64,000 nt of DNA from Streptomyces capitiformicae (GTDB lineage: Bacteria > Actinomycetota > Actinomycetes > Streptomycetales > Streptomycetaceae), in NCBI RefSeq assembly GCF_002214185.1, contig NZ_CP022161.1, forward strand, positions 9,803,486 through 9,867,485, in the 5' to 3' direction. Numbering within the stretch: position 1 is the first letter of the stretch; every line of letters starts with the position of its first letter. A program made the position numbers and the translations under genes. The notes beneath the pieces are model-generated. The model had not been told where the DNA came from. It searched no databases and worked only from the letters and a program-made list of their open reading frames with translations. Of the stretch, positions 29,276-62,751 are shown in pieces.

Positions 29276-29606
29276 TGATCGCGTTCCACGACACGGTGAT
29301 GCGGTCCACCAACAACGCCTTCATCCCGCTGCTCTTCAAGCTCTTCGGAAAGCTGCTGATCGAGGGCCGCCGCGAGACGTCGGCGGTCCCCGCGATCCCG
29401 GAACACGCCATCGCACACCACGCCCTCATCCTGGAGGCCCTGGGATCCGGGGATCCGGGGATCCGGGGATCCGGGGATCCGGGGATCCGGAGAAGGCACG
29501 CCGTGCGATGGCCGCGCATAGGGCGCAGACCGCCGAAGACCTGCGCGCCCATGTCCTCGCCCCCTTGCAGTCGTCACCGGAACTGCAGGAGTCCGGCTCC
29601 GCCTGA
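29268..29606 (+). pseudogene. GntR/FCD regulator tail with slippage-tract frameshift
   Basis: Reads AFHDTVMRSTNNAFIPLLF, KLLIEGRRETSAVPAIPEH and AIAHHALILEALGSGDP. It runs through an expanded GGGATCCG tract and loses frame. In the other frame it continues DPEKARRAMAAHRAQTAEDL and LAPLQSSPELQESGSA. FCD-domain His residues in HAIAHHALI are visible. The N-terminal winged helix is missing. It is not the same gene as the complete FCD regulator at 29740. Confidence 0.8.
29442..29490. repeat. 8-bp tandem repeat GGGATCCG, six copies
   Basis: GATCC recurs at 29444, 29452, 29460, 29468, 29476 and 29484, an exact 8-base period. Two copies encode the expected GSGDP of the surrounding FCD domain; the extra copies shift the frame. 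Two or five copies keep the frame and six do not. Confidence 0.95.
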
Positions 29607-53380: not shown

Positions 53381-54430
53381 ATGACGCAGGTGACTCCTCC
53401 CGATTGGTATCCCGACCCCGGGCAGACGAATGACGCGCCCGCCACCGAGCGCTGGTGGGACGGCAAGGCGTGGACGGACCAGATCCGGCCCGCGGGCTCG
53501 GCCGCGGGGTTCGGTCCCCCGGCCTTCCCGCCGGGTGCCGGGCCGCACCCCGGGTATCCGGGGTATCCGGGGTATCCGGGGTATCCGGGGTATCCGGGGT
53601 ATCCGGTCGCCGCTCCGAAGCGCGGCCTGCGCACGGGCATAGCCGTCGCCGTGGCGGCGGCGGTCCTGGCGAGCATCGGGGTGGGTGTGTATGCCCTGAC
53701 CAGCGGCGACGGCGGCAGCGAGGGCAGCACGACGTCCCAGGGCCCCGGCGGGCAGAACGGCCAGGGCGGTCCGGGCGGCAACTCCGGCGGCCAGGGCGGG
53801 CCCGGCGGCTCGGGTGGCTCGGGCGGTTCCGGTGGTCCCGGCGGTCAGAGTCCGGCGCCCGATGGGTCCGCCCGGCCGCCGCAGACCGAGGAGGGGTACG
53901 CGACCGACGCGGCCAGCGGCATCAGCATCCCGGTGCCCGACGGCTGGGTCACCTCGCCCCTCCAGGCCGGCGCGCAGGTGGTGACGGAGGCGTCGTACGA
54001 ATGCCCGGCCGACAACTCGAAGACGTGCACGCGTGGCGGTGCCTACTCGATGCCCGCCGAGTTGCTGAAGCTGAAGGCCACCACGGCCGAGGCGGCCGCC
54101 AAGGAGGACATCTCCAAGAACGCCGAGGACGCCTACGGCAGCGAGGCGTACGGCGAGATCAGCTCGCACGAGGAGTTGGCCTCCAAGGCGGTGACCGTGG
54201 CCGGCGAGAAGGGCTATCTGGTCCGTTGGAAGGTGGTCACGAGCAAGGGCGACGACGGCTACGTCGAGTCCCTCGCGTTCCCCTCCCCGGCCGACTCCTC
54301 GCGGCTCGTCGTGGTCCGGTTCGGCATCGACGTCAGTGACGAGGCGCCCGAGCAGTCGGTGATCGACGAGATCACCGAAGGCATCAAGGAGGCGTCGATC
54401 AGCAGCGGCGGCAGCGGTCAGGAGGTCTGA
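53381..54430 (+). CDS. DUF2510-domain membrane protein with GYP repeats
   Basis: A 349-residue protein. The N-terminal DUF2510 motif is PPDWYPDPG...RWWDGKAWTDQIRP, followed by six Gly-Tyr-Pro repeats, a membrane helix (TGIAVAVAAAVLASIGVGVY), a long Gly/Gln/Ser/Pro-rich linker and an extracytoplasmic lipoprotein-like domain ISIPVPDGWVTSP...YLVRWKVVTSKGDDGYVES. Two Cys in ECPADNSKTC may bond. The ATG at 53381 begins at the DUF2510 motif. Function unknown; probably envelope-related. Confidence 0.88.
   Translation: MTQVTPPDWYPDPGQTNDAPATERWWDGKAWTDQIRPAGSAAGFGPPAFPPGAGPHPGYPGYPGYPGYPGYPGYPVAAPKRGLRTGIAVAVAAAVLASIGVGVYALTSGDGGSEGSTTSQGPGGQNGQGGPGGNSGGQGGPGGSGGSGGSGGPGGQSPAPDGSARPPQTEEGYATDAASGISIPVPDGWVTSPLQAGAQVVTEASYECPADNSKTCTRGGAYSMPAELLKLKATTAEAAAKEDISKNAEDAYGSEAYGEISSHEELASKAVTVAGEKGYLVRWKVVTSKGDDGYVESLAFPSPADSSRLVVVRFGIDVSDEAPEQSVIDEITEGIKEASISSGGSGQEV
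53552..53605. repeat. 9-bp tandem repeat GGGTATCCG x6 (GYP repeats)
   Basis: TATCC recurs at 53555, 53564, 53573, 53582, 53591 and 53600, an exact 9-base period. It codes for Gly-Tyr-Pro units, so copy-number change would alter the length of the cytoplasmic linker without breaking the frame. Confidence 0.95.
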
Positions 54431-54579: not shown

Positions 54580-55194
54580 TCAGGTGAGGCCGAGCGTCGG
54601 CAGCACGGCCGCCTCCATGAACTTGATGATGTACGTCTCGTCCGCGTCCTGCCCGTCCAGGACCGGGCGGGCCCGCAGTACGCCGAAGATCTGCGCCGGG
54701 ATGAACTCCAGCGCCGGGTGGTCCGCTGGGACCTCGCCCCGGGCGACGGCGCGGTCGACCATCGCCCTGAGCGCGCAGATCTCGGGCTCGACGAGCGCGC
54801 CGCGCAGGGCCGCCTGCAACTCCTCGTCCTGTACGACGGCGTGGCCGAGCGCCTGGAACAGCCGGCCCTCGATGACGTAGCCCTCGCCTGCTTGCCGGGC
54901 CACCTCGCGCAGGTCACCGGCGAGCGTGCCGGTGTCGATGCCGGCGAAGCGCACACTGCGGCGCGCGCGCAGGGCCGCCGCCACGAACTGGGGCTTCGTC
55001 TTCCACTGACGGTAGAGCGTGGACTTGCTGCACCGGGTGCTCGCGGCGACGCCCTCCATGGTCACGGAGTCGTAGCCGCACTGTCTGATCTGTTCGAGCA
55101 CGGCGTCGAAGAACTCCTGCTCACGCTCGGGCGTGAGTTTGGAGCGGCGCGAGGCGACGGCCGTCTCCGGCCGGTCCGCGGCCTGCGACGTCAT
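54580..55194 (-). CDS. TetR/AcrR family regulator next to the iteron array
   Basis: A 204-residue regulator from ATG 55194. Helix-turn-helix: REQEFFDAVLEQIRQCGYDS and VTMEGVAASTRCSKSTLYRQ with WKTKPQFVAAAL. The C-terminal TetR domain is LREVARQAGEGYVIEGRLFQ...RGEVPADHPALEFIPAQIFG. It begins 39 bases from a 16-bp iteron array that continues to the divergent PAP2-like gene. It is therefore the best candidate protein for binding the array. Confidence 0.92.
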   Translation of the reverse strand: MTSQAADRPETAVASRRSKLTPEREQEFFDAVLEQIRQCGYDSVTMEGVAASTRCSKSTLYRQWKTKPQFVAAALRARRSVRFAGIDTGTLAGDLREVARQAGEGYVIEGRLFQALGHAVVQDEELQAALRGALVEPEICALRAMVDRAVARGEVPADHPALEFIPAQIFGVLRARPVLDGQDADETYIIKFMEAAVLPTLGLT

Positions 55195-55232
55195 GGCTCT
55201 GGTCTCCTTCGGTCGATCCGGCGCCCATCGGC

Positions 55233-55408
55233 CCTTCGATACGCCACTGTACCGGAACGGCTCCGTATCGGTACAGTGGCGTGTCGATACCTGACCGTTT
55301 CGATACTCCATCGTTTCGGTACAGCGTCGTATCGGTGCACCCGCGTATCGGTGCACCCGCGTATCGGTACGACAACGTATCGGTACCCGCGCGCATCGAT
55401 CGCTTGTA
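55233..55408. promoter_or_regulatory. Array of 16-bp iterons (GTATCGGTAC core) between TetR and PAP2 genes
   Basis: Cores start every 16 bases at 55265 (GTATCGGTAC), 55281 (GTGTCGATAC), 55297 (GTTTCGATAC), 55313 (GTTTCGGTAC), 55329 and 55345 (GTATCGGTGC), 55361 and 55377 (GTATCGGTAC) and 55393 (GCATCGATCG). Two weaker units lie at 55233 and 55249. The units at 55329 and 55345 are identical over all 16 bases. In addition, 14-bp inverted arms (55241-55254, 55269-55282) flank the left edge. This arrangement suggests cooperative regulator binding over both promoters. Confidence 0.85.
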
Positions 55409-55465
55409 CCGCCGTGAGAGCCAGCGCCACCAGCGCCACCAGCACCGTCAGTGAAAGGGCCGGGG

Positions 55466-56238
55466 ATGGAATGCCACACCGAGCCTGCCGAAGAAGGGCC
55501 CGCCGCGATATCGCGGCCGCCCCTCGTCCGTGAACTCCTGCTCGTCGCAGGGCTCTTCCTGCTCCACAAGGTCGGGCGACTGCTGGCGAACGGCCACACC
55601 GCCGAGGCCTTCCACAACGCCCACGAGGTGTGGGGCTGGGAGCGTGCCCTGGGGCTGCCGGGCGAGTGCTCCGTGCAGTCCGCGCCGCTGCAGAGCGACA
55701 GCCTGGTCCACGTCGCGAACGTCTACTACGCGACCATCCACTTCCCGGCAACCGCGGCCTTCCTGGTCTGGCTGTACCCCTGCGGCGCCCCGCCCACTAC
55801 GTGTGGGCGCGCCGGGTCCTCGCCGCCCTCACCGCCGCCGCCCTGCTGCTGCATCTGGCGTTCCCGCTCGCCCCGCCGCGGATGCTGGAGACCGCCGGAC
55901 TCGTCGACACCGGGCAGGCGTACGGGCCGACGGTGTACCTCCTCAACGCGCAGGTCGTCGTGGTCGCCCTCCTGGTGGCCGCCTGCGCGGTCGGCGGCCT
56001 GTTCCTCCTCGGCGAGGGACTGCGGGGAGGCGTCGCGGGGGTGCTGCTCGCGGTGGTGGCGGCACGGGGGGTGGTGCTGCTGACGCGGGTGCCGCCGGTC
56101 GAGGTCCGGCCGGTGGACGAGAACCACCCGGTGGCGGCGGTCCTCGCGTTGGAACCCAGGCACGCCCCGATGGAGCCGCCCCTGCTCCCCCTCCAGCCAG
56201 GGCCCCCGGCGCCGGGTCACCTCACTCCCGCCCCGTAA
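55466..56238 (+). pseudogene. PAP2/inositolphosphotransferase-like membrane protein, frameshifted and lacking its catalytic core
   Basis: From ATG 55466: LVRELLLVAGLFLLHKVGRL, FHNAHEVWGWERALGLPGEC and VYYATIHFPATAAFLVWLY. A shift near 55778 leads to RRPAHYVWARRVLAALTAAA, PLAPPRMLETAGLVDTGQAY and GPTVYLLNAQVVVVALLVAA. The family motif with Pro-Ser-Leu-His that should follow GPTVY is missing, so an internal deletion has also occurred. The divergent regulator and iterons upstream are intact. Confidence 0.75.
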
Positions 56239-56793: not shown

Positions 56794-59394
56794 TCACGGC
56801 AGGATCTCGATGTACCCGTCGGTTCCGTGCACGCGGATCCGCTGTCCGTCCCGGATCAGCCGGGTGGCCTGCTCCACGCCCACGACGGCGGGCAAGCCAT
56901 ACTCCCGGGCGATCACTGCGCCATGGGTCATCAGGCCGCCCACCTCCGTCACCAGGCCCGCGATTCCGACGAACAGCGGCGACCAACTGGGGTCCGTGAA
57001 GGTCGTGACCAGGATGTCGCCCGCTTCGAGATCGGCCTCCGCCATGTCAAGGATGACGCGGGCCCTTCCCTCGATGGTCCCGGCGGACACCGGTAGGCCG
57101 GTCAGGGCGCCGGCCGGCACGTCGTCGCGCCGGTATGCCCCGGTGACGGCCTCGCCGTCCGATGTGAGCACGCGGGGCGGTGTGAGCGCGTGGTACGACC
57201 GGAACGCGTCCTTGCGCTGCTGTATGAGCTGGTCGTCCACCTGGTTCGAGCGCACGACGTCATGGAGTTCATGGAAGGTGAGGTAGAAGATGTCCTCCTT
57301 CGCAGGAAGCACGTTGGCCTGCACGAGGCGCTCGGCCTCCGCCAGCAGGGCCTGCTTGTAGACGAAGTAGCGGCTGACGATGCCGTACTTCGGGTACTCC
57401 CGGTACCCGATGAAGGTTCGGACCCGGTCGATCATCCGCTTGGCCTCGTCGGCTTTCTGGTCCCCGTCCGGCAGGGCCCGCAAGCGTGACAGCACGTCCT
57501 GTTCCTTCTTCCGCGCCTTCTGCCGACCTTCCTCGAAGCGCCGCTCGGCGGCGCCCGGTTCGAAGTTCCTGACGTTGTCGAGGATCACGGGCACGAGCGT
57601 GGTGGGTCGCTCGCGCCAACGTGGCCTCGTGATGTCGATCTCGCCGACGCAGCGCATACCGTACCGGTCGAGGTAGGCCTCTATGGCGTCGCGCGCTTCG
57701 GTCCCGCCCGCGAGCTTCGCCAGTTCCTCCAGGAAACCCTCGTCCTCGACGCCCTGCAGGAACGCCACCACCTCCGGCTGAGGGCGGATCACGTCCGCGA
57801 CGTCGAGCAGCGCCAGTCCCATCTCCGACGTGACGTTGTCGGGGACGGACAGTGTGAGCGTGTCAGCCGCGTTCTTCTCGCCCAGCCACTCCCGCAGCCT
57901 GTCGTTGAGCCACCACGTGGCCTCCATCCCCGCCATGATCGCCTGATGGCTCAGCGGATCACTGAGGACCCGCTTGTGCTCCTCGAAGGCCTCCAGCAGG
58001 AAGTCGAACAGCGCCGGTCCGGTCTTCGTCCGGATGTCGCGCTCCAGGTCGGCGATGGACGCCTGACTGCGCTCGATCAGCTCGGTGACGATGGCCGGAT
58101 CGGTCTCGATCTGGGCGGAGGCACCGCCGGCCGGCGGCCTGCCGGGTCCCGCGTCCGGGAGTGACGGGACGAAATCGTCGTCGCGGTCGAGGACGGTCTC
58201 CAGCGCGTCCCTGACCAGCGGATCGCCCCTCCCCATGACGTCCAGGAGGCCGGCGCGGCTCGCGGGCGAGGCCAGGCGCCGGGTGACATCCACGAACAGC
58301 CTTCCGCCGGCCTCGTGCATCGGCACCATCGCCGTCAGTTGCCACATGGAGAACCCCAGAGGCTTCATGGGGTCCGTCATCATCTGCTGATGACCGACGG
58401 AGACGTAGACGTGATTGTCCTGGTCGCCGGTCTCGGGGACGGGGAACAGCGTCGTGATCGGCCGGCTCTGAACGATGTGGAAGCCCTCATCGGCCAGGCA
58501 CCATTCGATGTCCTGCGGGCGGCCGAAGTGGGCTTCGATTCGCCGCCCGAGCTGTACGAGCCGCACGACCTGCGCATCCGTCAGCGTCGGCCGCTCCTGC
58601 CGCTGCGAGTCGATCGCCACTTCCTGCGTGCCGCCGTCCGGCAGGGCGTGAACGGCACGCTGTTTGGCGGCGATCGACTTGGCGACGACTTCGCCGTCGC
58701 GCACCTTGAAGACGTCCGGGTTCACCAGGCCGGAGACCAGGGCCTCGCCGAGGCCGAAGCCGGCGTCCACGGTGGCGACCTTCCGGTTGCCCGTGACGGG
58801 GTCGGCCGTGAACAGGATGCCGGCCGCATGCGGGAAGACCATCTGCTGCACGACCACGGCCATGTGGACCGTACGGTGGTCGATGCCGTTCCGCTGGCGG
58901 TAGGTCACGGCCCGCTCGGTGAACAGCGAGGCCCAGCACCGGCTGACGTGCTGGAGGATCGCCGCCGGCCCCACCACGTTCAGGTACGTGTCCTGCTGGC
59001 CGGCGAAGGAGGCCGTCGGCAGGTCCTCTGCCGTAGCGCTGGATCGGACGGCGTAGGCGGCTTGCTCGCCGAGCTGGGCGAGTGCGCGGGTGATCGCCGC
59101 CGCGAGATCGCCCGGAATGGCAACCCCTTCGATGGTTCGGCGAATCTGCGCGCTGAGCGTGCGGATCGCTTCCCGGTCGTCCGGGTTCAAGCGCGACAGC
59201 TGATCGAGCCGATCGTCGATCGACGGCGCTTCCGCCATGATCCGCCGGAAGGCGTCCGTCGTCACACAAAAGCCACCCGGCACGCGGATGCCTTCGATCC
59301 CCGACAGCCCGCCCAGGTGCGCGCCCTTGCCCCCAACGACCCCGACCTGCGTCTCGTCAACCTCTTGAAGATCCCGCACGTACCGCTCGGTCAT
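56794..59394 (-). CDS. rph: Rifamycin-inactivating phosphotransferase
   Basis: An 866-residue PEP-synthase-like enzyme that phosphorylates rifamycins with ATP. ATP-binding domain: GVVGGKGAHLGGLSGIEGIR, AYAVRSSATAEDLPTASFAG and DIEWCLADEGFHIVQSRPIT. Rifampicin domain in the middle: YVSVGHQQMMTDPMKPLGFS. C-terminal swivelling His domain: VTEVGGLMTHGAVIAREYGL with His824. ATG 59394 follows GGAGGT. A rifamycin-associated element lies 252 bases upstream, so expression is probably rifamycin-inducible. Confidence 0.95.
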   Translation of the reverse strand: MTERYVRDLQEVDETQVGVVGGKGAHLGGLSGIEGIRVPGGFCVTTDAFRRIMAEAPSIDDRLDQLSRLNPDDREAIRTLSAQIRRTIEGVAIPGDLAAAITRALAQLGEQAAYAVRSSATAEDLPTASFAGQQDTYLNVVGPAAILQHVSRCWASLFTERAVTYRQRNGIDHRTVHMAVVVQQMVFPHAAGILFTADPVTGNRKVATVDAGFGLGEALVSGLVNPDVFKVRDGEVVAKSIAAKQRAVHALPDGGTQEVAIDSQRQERPTLTDAQVVRLVQLGRRIEAHFGRPQDIEWCLADEGFHIVQSRPITTLFPVPETGDQDNHVYVSVGHQQMMTDPMKPLGFSMWQLTAMVPMHEAGGRLFVDVTRRLASPASRAGLLDVMGRGDPLVRDALETVLDRDDDFVPSLPDAGPGRPPAGGASAQIETDPAIVTELIERSQASIADLERDIRTKTGPALFDFLLEAFEEHKRVLSDPLSHQAIMAGMEATWWLNDRLREWLGEKNAADTLTLSVPDNVTSEMGLALLDVADVIRPQPEVVAFLQGVEDEGFLEELAKLAGGTEARDAIEAYLDRYGMRCVGEIDITRPRWRERPTTLVPVILDNVRNFEPGAAERRFEEGRQKARKKEQDVLSRLRALPDGDQKADEAKRMIDRVRTFIGYREYPKYGIVSRYFVYKQALLAEAERLVQANVLPAKEDIFYLTFHELHDVVRSNQVDDQLIQQRKDAFRSYHALTPPRVLTSDGEAVTGAYRRDDVPAGALTGLPVSAGTIEGRARVILDMAEADLEAGDILVTTFTDPSWSPLFVGIAGLVTEVGGLMTHGAVIAREYGLPAVVGVEQATRLIRDGQRIRVHGTDGYIEILP

Positions 59395-59645
59395 TGCCGT
59401 ACCTCCGGGGCGACCGTGCTCCGCTGCACTGCGCCGGCCGATCGAATCACCAGCGCCTCCAACTCTGTCGAACCTCTTGTCGAGCACGTCTTCATCCCTG
59501 GTTGCCTTCCCTCTGACGAGTCGGCCGGCCGCTCCGCCCAGTCGGACGGCGCGCACCCCCGCACCTCCGCACCGATCGTCCGCGACTGCACTCCCGGCCC
59601 CACCACTGTGCTGTGGCCTCGGCCGACGATTCTGCGCCGTGACCC

Positions 59646-62520: not shown

Positions 62521-62751
62521 TCGTGCACGCTGCCCGCCTGCTCCCGCGCATGCCGCGTGCCCGGCCTCGTGCACGCTGTACGGTCGGTCTCGTCCACGCT
62601 GCCTGCTCGGCCTTGCGCACGCCGCTTGCCCGGTCTCGCGCGTGCCGTCTGCCTGGCGTCGTGCGTGGCGCGTGCCCGGCCTCGCGCACGCTGCCTGGCA
62701 GGGTCTCGTGCGCGCTGCCCGCCGAGCCCCGCGCATGCTGCCCGCCCGGCG
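62521..62751. repeat. 23-bp minisatellite, ten degenerate units
   Basis: Units of the form TCGTGCACGCTGCCCGCTCG plus GCC start at 62521, 62544, 62567, 62590, 62613, 62636, 62659, 62682, 62706 and 62729. All are 23 bases except one of 24. Each has a TCGYGCRYGCTG-like half and a CCYGCCCGG-like half. The array fills the gap between tnpB and dapE. Units differ by several bases, so it is not a CRISPR. Confidence 0.9.

Follow-up and report, generated by a model that had tools for sequence, protein, structure and literature searches.

A chain of overlapping inverted repeats at 16-bp period beside a Streptomyces TetR-family gene, probably its multi-dimer operator

We analysed a stretch of 64,000 nucleotides from Streptomyces capitiformicae (contig NZ_CP022161.1, positions 9,803,486 to 9,867,485 of the forward strand), here called the window. 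In it the intergenic region between a TetR-family regulator gene on the minus strand and a divergent gene is occupied by eleven 16-base units in register. This array is probably the chained operator of an autoregulated, divergent TetR_C_11 repressor, whose dimers would be centred on spacers 16 base pairs (bp) apart and would control tetR together with a PAP2/DMT gene pair. The array, its phase, its link to the TetR gene and to the PAP2/DMT genes, and the asymmetry of its ends are read directly from the sequences. The features first concerned are these:

55233..55402, no strand: putative operator array of 16-bp period, with 11 element positions (9 strong cores and 2 weaker ends)
54580..55194, minus strand: TetR-family regulator of 204 amino acids, PF00440 TetR_N and PF16859 TetR_C_11, open frame intact
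55235..55400, no strand: ten overlapping 22-bp spacer-centred sites of the form [8 bp]-N6-[8 bp], starting at 55235 to 55379, every 16 bp, in the geometry predicted here

Compared with the 10-bp core GTAYCGRTAC, nine strong elements carry at most one mismatch (55249, 55265, 55281, 55297, 55313, 55329, 55345, 55361 and 55377, in steps of exactly 16), and one weaker element at each end, at 55233 and 55393, carries three. A preliminary description of this DNA had rightly reported nine cores at a strict step of 16, but it placed them at 55265 to 55393 instead of 55249 to 55377, set both weak elements before them, and made no use of the fact that the core is itself near-palindromic. Could such a run arise by chance? 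Allowing one mismatch per core, the window's longest run of constant period has 9 members, at period 16; in every one of 100 dinucleotide-preserving shuffles of the window the corresponding figure was 1. The array is thus genuine and well outside what chance would produce. Tandem Repeats Finder recovers it in part (55296-55386, period 16, 81% matches). In the whole 11-megabase genome, a two-core pattern allowing up to three mismatches gave seven matches, all within the array, and elsewhere one match with three mismatches; its reversed control gave two.

The strongest argument that the array is under selection comes from its phase. In 137 distinct arrays from the window and related loci, adjacent strong cores lie 16 bases apart in 427 of 433 cases. 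The six exceptions leave the phase of the chains untouched: three are distances of 32, two (6 and 10) arise from an additional core within the L012 array, and the last, of 42, leads to an isolated core in L042; one more distance of 32 belongs to a repeated locus, outside the distinct-array count. Of 284 pairs of adjacent spacers only 2 are identical, one in L045 and one in the window, where the neighbouring 16-mers at 55329-55360 are identical and likely reflect a recent duplication of a unit. Most copies are thus old enough for their spacers to have diverged, and yet indels that would break the phase are missing from the chains. Diverged spacers together with a kept phase speak for selection on the phase, which supports the earlier suggestion that core and phase are selected.

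Is the array peculiar to this strain? TetR relatives (E ≤ 1e-20) were found in 273 of 295 genomes of the genus, and 30 loci of that search were examined, together with 80 of 329 candidate loci from named Streptomyces, a lower-identity set of 31, 29 new ones from a family-wide search, and 20 picked mostly as paralogues or distant homologues. Since these loci come partly from the same strains, counts of distinct arrays are used where given. Every one of the 160 fetched loci whose TetR protein is at least 55% identical carries two or more strong cores at a distance of 16 bp; this identity border, like the E-value border of 1e-58 used below, was set after the data were seen. The absence beside orthologous genes that the preliminary description had named as grounds for giving up its proposal was thus not observed. 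The 160 loci represent 140 distinct arrays, with runs of 2 (6 loci), 3 (65), 4 (47), 5 (23), 6 (7), 7 (8), 8 (1) and 9 (3) strong cores. When elements with up to three mismatches are counted, the chains have 3 to 12 elements, most commonly 5 (70 of the 160 loci), and the longest is that of S. scabiei (L044), with 12 elements or eleven chained sites. Below 55% identity, 28 of 30 loci have no such chain; the exceptions, L192 and L194, carry a three-element version with GTCTCG half-sites, that is, two sites sharing one core. A chain is also present in another genus at L244 (around positions 1400-2532 of that locus), beside a TetR homologue of 53% identity.

The same association is seen in genome-wide counts. 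We searched 101 genomes of the genus with an operator pattern. All 64 that encode an orthologue (E ≤ 1e-58) contain it, as do 4 of the remaining 37; at least two sites were present in 60 of the 64 and in none of the 37. Moving the border to 1e-60 gave the same table, and moving it to 1e-62 gave 62/62 against 6/39. The reversed control of the pattern matched one genome of 101. The single matches in orthologue-free genomes are in G026, G037, G076 and G098, and that of G026, which was examined (L211), lies at another TetR gene. A strict three-core pattern matched 12 of 296 genomes in a class-wide sample, all of them among the 28 of the window's genus, and 16 of 121 genomes within the family, in three of 17 genera. 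This pattern has no match in the window's own genome, because some cores carry a mismatch, and counts by it are therefore undercounts. The array is thus no strain-specific feature, and by these comparisons it goes with the TetR regulator across genomes. In the window's genome the operator pattern matches in the array only, so that the regulon looks narrow; however, the pattern catches three of the ten array sites, and weaker targets would therefore be missed. At least nine sites away from the array are among the matches listed for the 101 genomes.

The regulator itself has a PF00440 helix-turn-helix (HTH) domain and a TetR C-terminal domain, both above the curated cut-off, which places it in the TetR family. 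Its AlphaFold2 model is an all-helical TetR-like fold with a mean predicted local distance difference test score of 82.6. No NCBIfam equivalog was found for it, and the KstR and BetI models score far below cut-off.

How would such a regulator sit on the chain? The array is best read as chained inverted repeats ATCGRTAC-N6-GTAYCGAT centred on the 6-bp spacers, not as plain direct repeats, and so read it would fit a palindrome-binding family. The preliminary description took it for a direct-repeat array unusual for TetR; the connection with TetR holds, but the regulator would bind palindromes as its family usually does. Alternatively, one dimer might occupy each 10-bp GTAYCGRTAC palindrome, so that the array would consist of nine to eleven independent operators, each 6 bp from the next. 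The core is indeed near-palindromic and the most conserved unit, and palindromes of 10-14 bp are used by some TetR proteins, for example KstR. The two placements differ in what they make of the chain ends. We compared the halves of the element just beyond the core run in the 137 distinct arrays, with run ends set by the one-mismatch border, so that a true left end with one mismatch is scored as inside the run; repeated arrays and L120, L121, L123 and L126, which leave too little room, were excluded. At the right end, 123 arrays show the poorer match in the outer half and 2 in the inner half, and 12 are tied; the two outermost bases there agree with the core in 6% and 9% of cases, where composition would predict 15% and 38%. 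The corresponding counts for the left end are 77 (outer half poorer), 20 (inner half poorer) and 40 (tied). End elements thus mostly keep the half that faces the array, which favours spacer-centred sites and is left without explanation by dimers centred on cores. Further, in another genus (nine of the loci L169-L178, L171 belonging to a different one) a single inverted repeat ATCGAAAC-N6-GTTTCGAT stands beside homologues of about 50% identity; it is perfect at 8 of the 9 loci and has one mismatch in L176. These single-site relatives have two half-sites 6 bp apart and no core, and they too favour spacer-centred over core-centred dimers. We therefore hold the core-centred placement to be unlikely. 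Across the loci the number of sites rises by degrees, from a single repeat standing alone in another genus of the family, through two sites at L192 and L194 and four at 70 of the 160 loci, to ten in the window and eleven in S. scabiei.

Several observations weigh against spacer-centred operator sites and should be noticed. Each of the ten sites in the window is palindromic at only 5-6 of 8 positions, and only three match the operator pattern. The asymmetry is weaker at the left end, where the 20 reversed cases of 137 include a subclade such as L127-L137, and L171, from a third genus and 51% identical, has no inverted repeat of this form. The cores are imperfectly symmetric, the commonest being GTATCGGTAC, and could serve a directional reader as well. 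A correlation with the HTH residue Cys55 is loose, Cys55 being present without the chain at L180, L184 and L197, and it could be explained by shared ancestry. That the array spans both divergent promoters, as had been proposed, is plausible, although a scan of 55150-55600 found no sigma-70-type promoter consensus; it found no terminator either. Finally, binding by the TetR protein, the placement of its dimers, repression and cooperativity are all inferred.

With these reservations, the spacer-centred reading leads to the following mechanism. One dimer would recognise the inverted repeat ATCGRTAC-N6-GTAYCGAT, with variation, and each 10-bp core would serve two neighbouring dimers, as right half-site for one and as left half-site for the other, the two half-sites overlapping at the central CG. 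Since 16 bp is about 1.5 turns of B-DNA, successive dimers would lie on opposite faces of the helix. By filling the chain, the regulator would repress in both directions, on one side its own gene and on the other a two-gene membrane unit of a PAP2_3 phosphatase and a DMT-family transporter, and it would be released on a ligand, repression and ligand being expected from the family. A chain of 3 to 12 elements, or about 2 to 11 dimer sites, would then set the steepness and tightness of the switch. The dimers may then form a cooperative repressor filament, as the preliminary description had suggested. A bolder form of the idea, in which the repressor polymerises along chained operators on faces alternating every 16 bp and the number of units is an evolvable dial for steepness, is tentative, and we rate it as somewhat less likely than not.

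Might the repeats be explained without contact between dimers, or without the regulator at all? Extra sites could act as decoys that titrate the regulator and so delay or sharpen derepression. The large number of sites, its variation between close relatives and the tolerance of imperfect sites would suit this, yet titration needs no exact 16-bp phase, which is kept almost throughout, and the sites are located in the divergent intergenic region; decoys are thus unlikely. It is very unlikely that slippage simply multiplied one operator and the copies are passengers of neutral repeat growth. Copy number does vary, and the identical units at 55329-55360 and the identical spacers in L045 are what slippage would leave, but elsewhere the spacers have diverged while cores and phase were kept, and at least two strong cores persist at every one of the orthologous loci. 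Short direct repeats at fixed spacing also look like iterons, and the preliminary description had considered a borrowed origin-like structure. An origin-like element, or a site of some unrelated DNA-binding protein, is hardly credible: the presence of the array follows the TetR gene across genomes, the strict three-core pattern occurs in none of the 268 genomes outside the family in the class-wide sample, and a Pfam scan of six protein sequences from five neighbouring genes found TetR, two PAP2 pieces, DUF2510, PPDK_N/PEP-utilizers and an S8 peptidase, and no replication initiator.

What would the chain control? An uninterrupted PAP2_3 match is the divergent gene at 158 of the 190 loci; these are L192, L194 and 156 of the 160 loci with an array. 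None was found in the 1.5-2 kilobases (kb) of upstream sequence searched beside the 28 array-less homologues. Of the four array loci left over, one is the window itself, L069 has a partial match, and in L125 and L166 the match falls into two pieces without stops. For 106 array loci the upstream sequence covered 2.5 kb or more, and in 104 of these PAP2 is followed by a transporter-like gene, the match being missing in L069 and L148. The family name DMT comes from the L244 protein (NF038012 DMT_1, 67.6 bits, cut-off 50); in Pfam, Mg_trans_NIPA alone passes for this protein, narrowly, and for PAP2 no NCBIfam match was found. At L244 the DMT transporter is itself the divergent neighbour of the TetR homologue, with no PAP2 found in the upstream stretch searched, and of the two targets the transporter may be the more ancient. 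At L148, where the orthologue is 57% identical, the chain has eight elements and no DMT match lies downstream, and the regulator may have a different target. The PAP2/DMT pair suggests a role in the handling of membrane lipids or small molecules.

In the window strain both target genes are broken:

55451..55938, plus strand: 5' remnant of the divergent PAP2_3 (PF14378) gene, aligning at 95% identity with the first 486 bases of its 816-base counterpart in S. tailanensis (L039)
55922..56238, plus strand: 3' remnant of the second target gene, which in relatives encodes a DMT-family transporter; a deletion has joined it to the PAP2 remnant

The frame of the PAP2 remnant is shifted by a net insertion of 2 bases near 55777, and the second half of the gene is absent, with its PSLH and NHYWLD stretches, which we take to be catalytic motifs. 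By comparison with L039, L040, L043 and L044, about 880 bp belonging partly to each target have been deleted, and a little beyond this gap about 90 bp more are missing; when aligned to L039, the two flanking pieces share 17 bp at the junction. The regulator and the array were left intact. The decay of the divergent gene beside an intact array, which had been pointed out before, is therefore true of this strain, where the next gene is hit as well, but it is not general, as the 156 uninterrupted genes attest. With both targets broken, the chain may here serve autoregulation only. The broken genes adjoin a rifamycin-inactivating phosphotransferase gene (56797-59490; NF041857, 1663 bits).

How does the array compare with known systems? 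By its sequence, with chained sites every 16 bp, it has more than one overlapping or phased inverted-repeat site in one region, as a multi-dimer TetR operator does. SlmA, a family member with a role in cell division, acts at scattered chromosomal sites, unlike a repressor operator array. The relevant passages of PMC4150764 describe QacR, CprB, CgmR, SlmA and Ms6564 as binding as two dimers. In QacR, CprB, CgmR and Ms6564 the two dimers occupy one DNA stretch of 22-32 bp, cooperatively in QacR and CprB, and these four share with the window a TetR-fold regulator; however, they have two dimers per site, where the window would have an open-ended chain of ten sites. DarR places two touching dimers on overlapping palindromes within a 20-bp site, and adjacent dimers on the chain would likewise read overlapping palindromes, but the part of PMC10636190 concerned describes two dimers and no extended chain. 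EthR, according to a passage of PMC5403819 citing a 2004 study, binds cooperatively as an octamer in the ethA-ethR intergenic region, likewise between a divergent TetR/target pair, though with an unrelated target. A single 27-bp palindrome without a chain is given in the relevant part of PMC5895659. In Streptomyces, BldC forms head-to-tail multimers on direct repeats, a protein-DNA filament whose repeat number varies by site (PMC5859096, in part). The variable repeat number is shared, but BldC is MerR-like, with repeats about one helical turn apart and no TetR dimers; a filament of this type was rejected for the window, whose linked regulator is TetR and not a BldC/MerR-like winged helix-turn-helix protein. 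A paper with DNA motifs in its title that contains the core string (PMC5715377) was also set aside, the string lying in primers, and the other listed matches to the string are unrelated by title. Among the matches listed from the open-licence PubMed Central literature, there was no description of the locus or of a TetR chain of such length. By its sequence logic, the array appears to share phased multi-dimer sites with known TetR operators, and what would be new is the open-ended chain of up to 12 elements.

Some other repeats were seen. At L199, L208, L211 and L212 (around base 1500), a different TetR gene, presumably next to an AlkB-type repair gene by appearance, has two chained CGATAC-N6-GTATCG-like sites with a 17-bp period, judged by eye. 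Chained TetR operators may be a wider habit. Elsewhere in the window there are six 9-bp repeats GGGTATCCG at 53552-53606, encoding a Gly-Tyr-Pro repeat in a DUF2510 protein, an 8-bp unit GGGATCCG in six perfect copies at 29442-29490, and a 23-bp unit in ten degenerate copies with 66% matches at 62521-62750.

TetR is a very common family of bacterial regulators, and the structures described in the relevant parts of PMC10636190 and PMC4150764 carry one or two dimers. An orthologous family with operators of graded length and fixed phase would provide natural variants on which to measure how site number, phase, cooperativity and the steepness of the switch are related. For a regulator without a name in any NCBIfam model, it also points to a likely target, PAP2_3 together with the DMT transporter.
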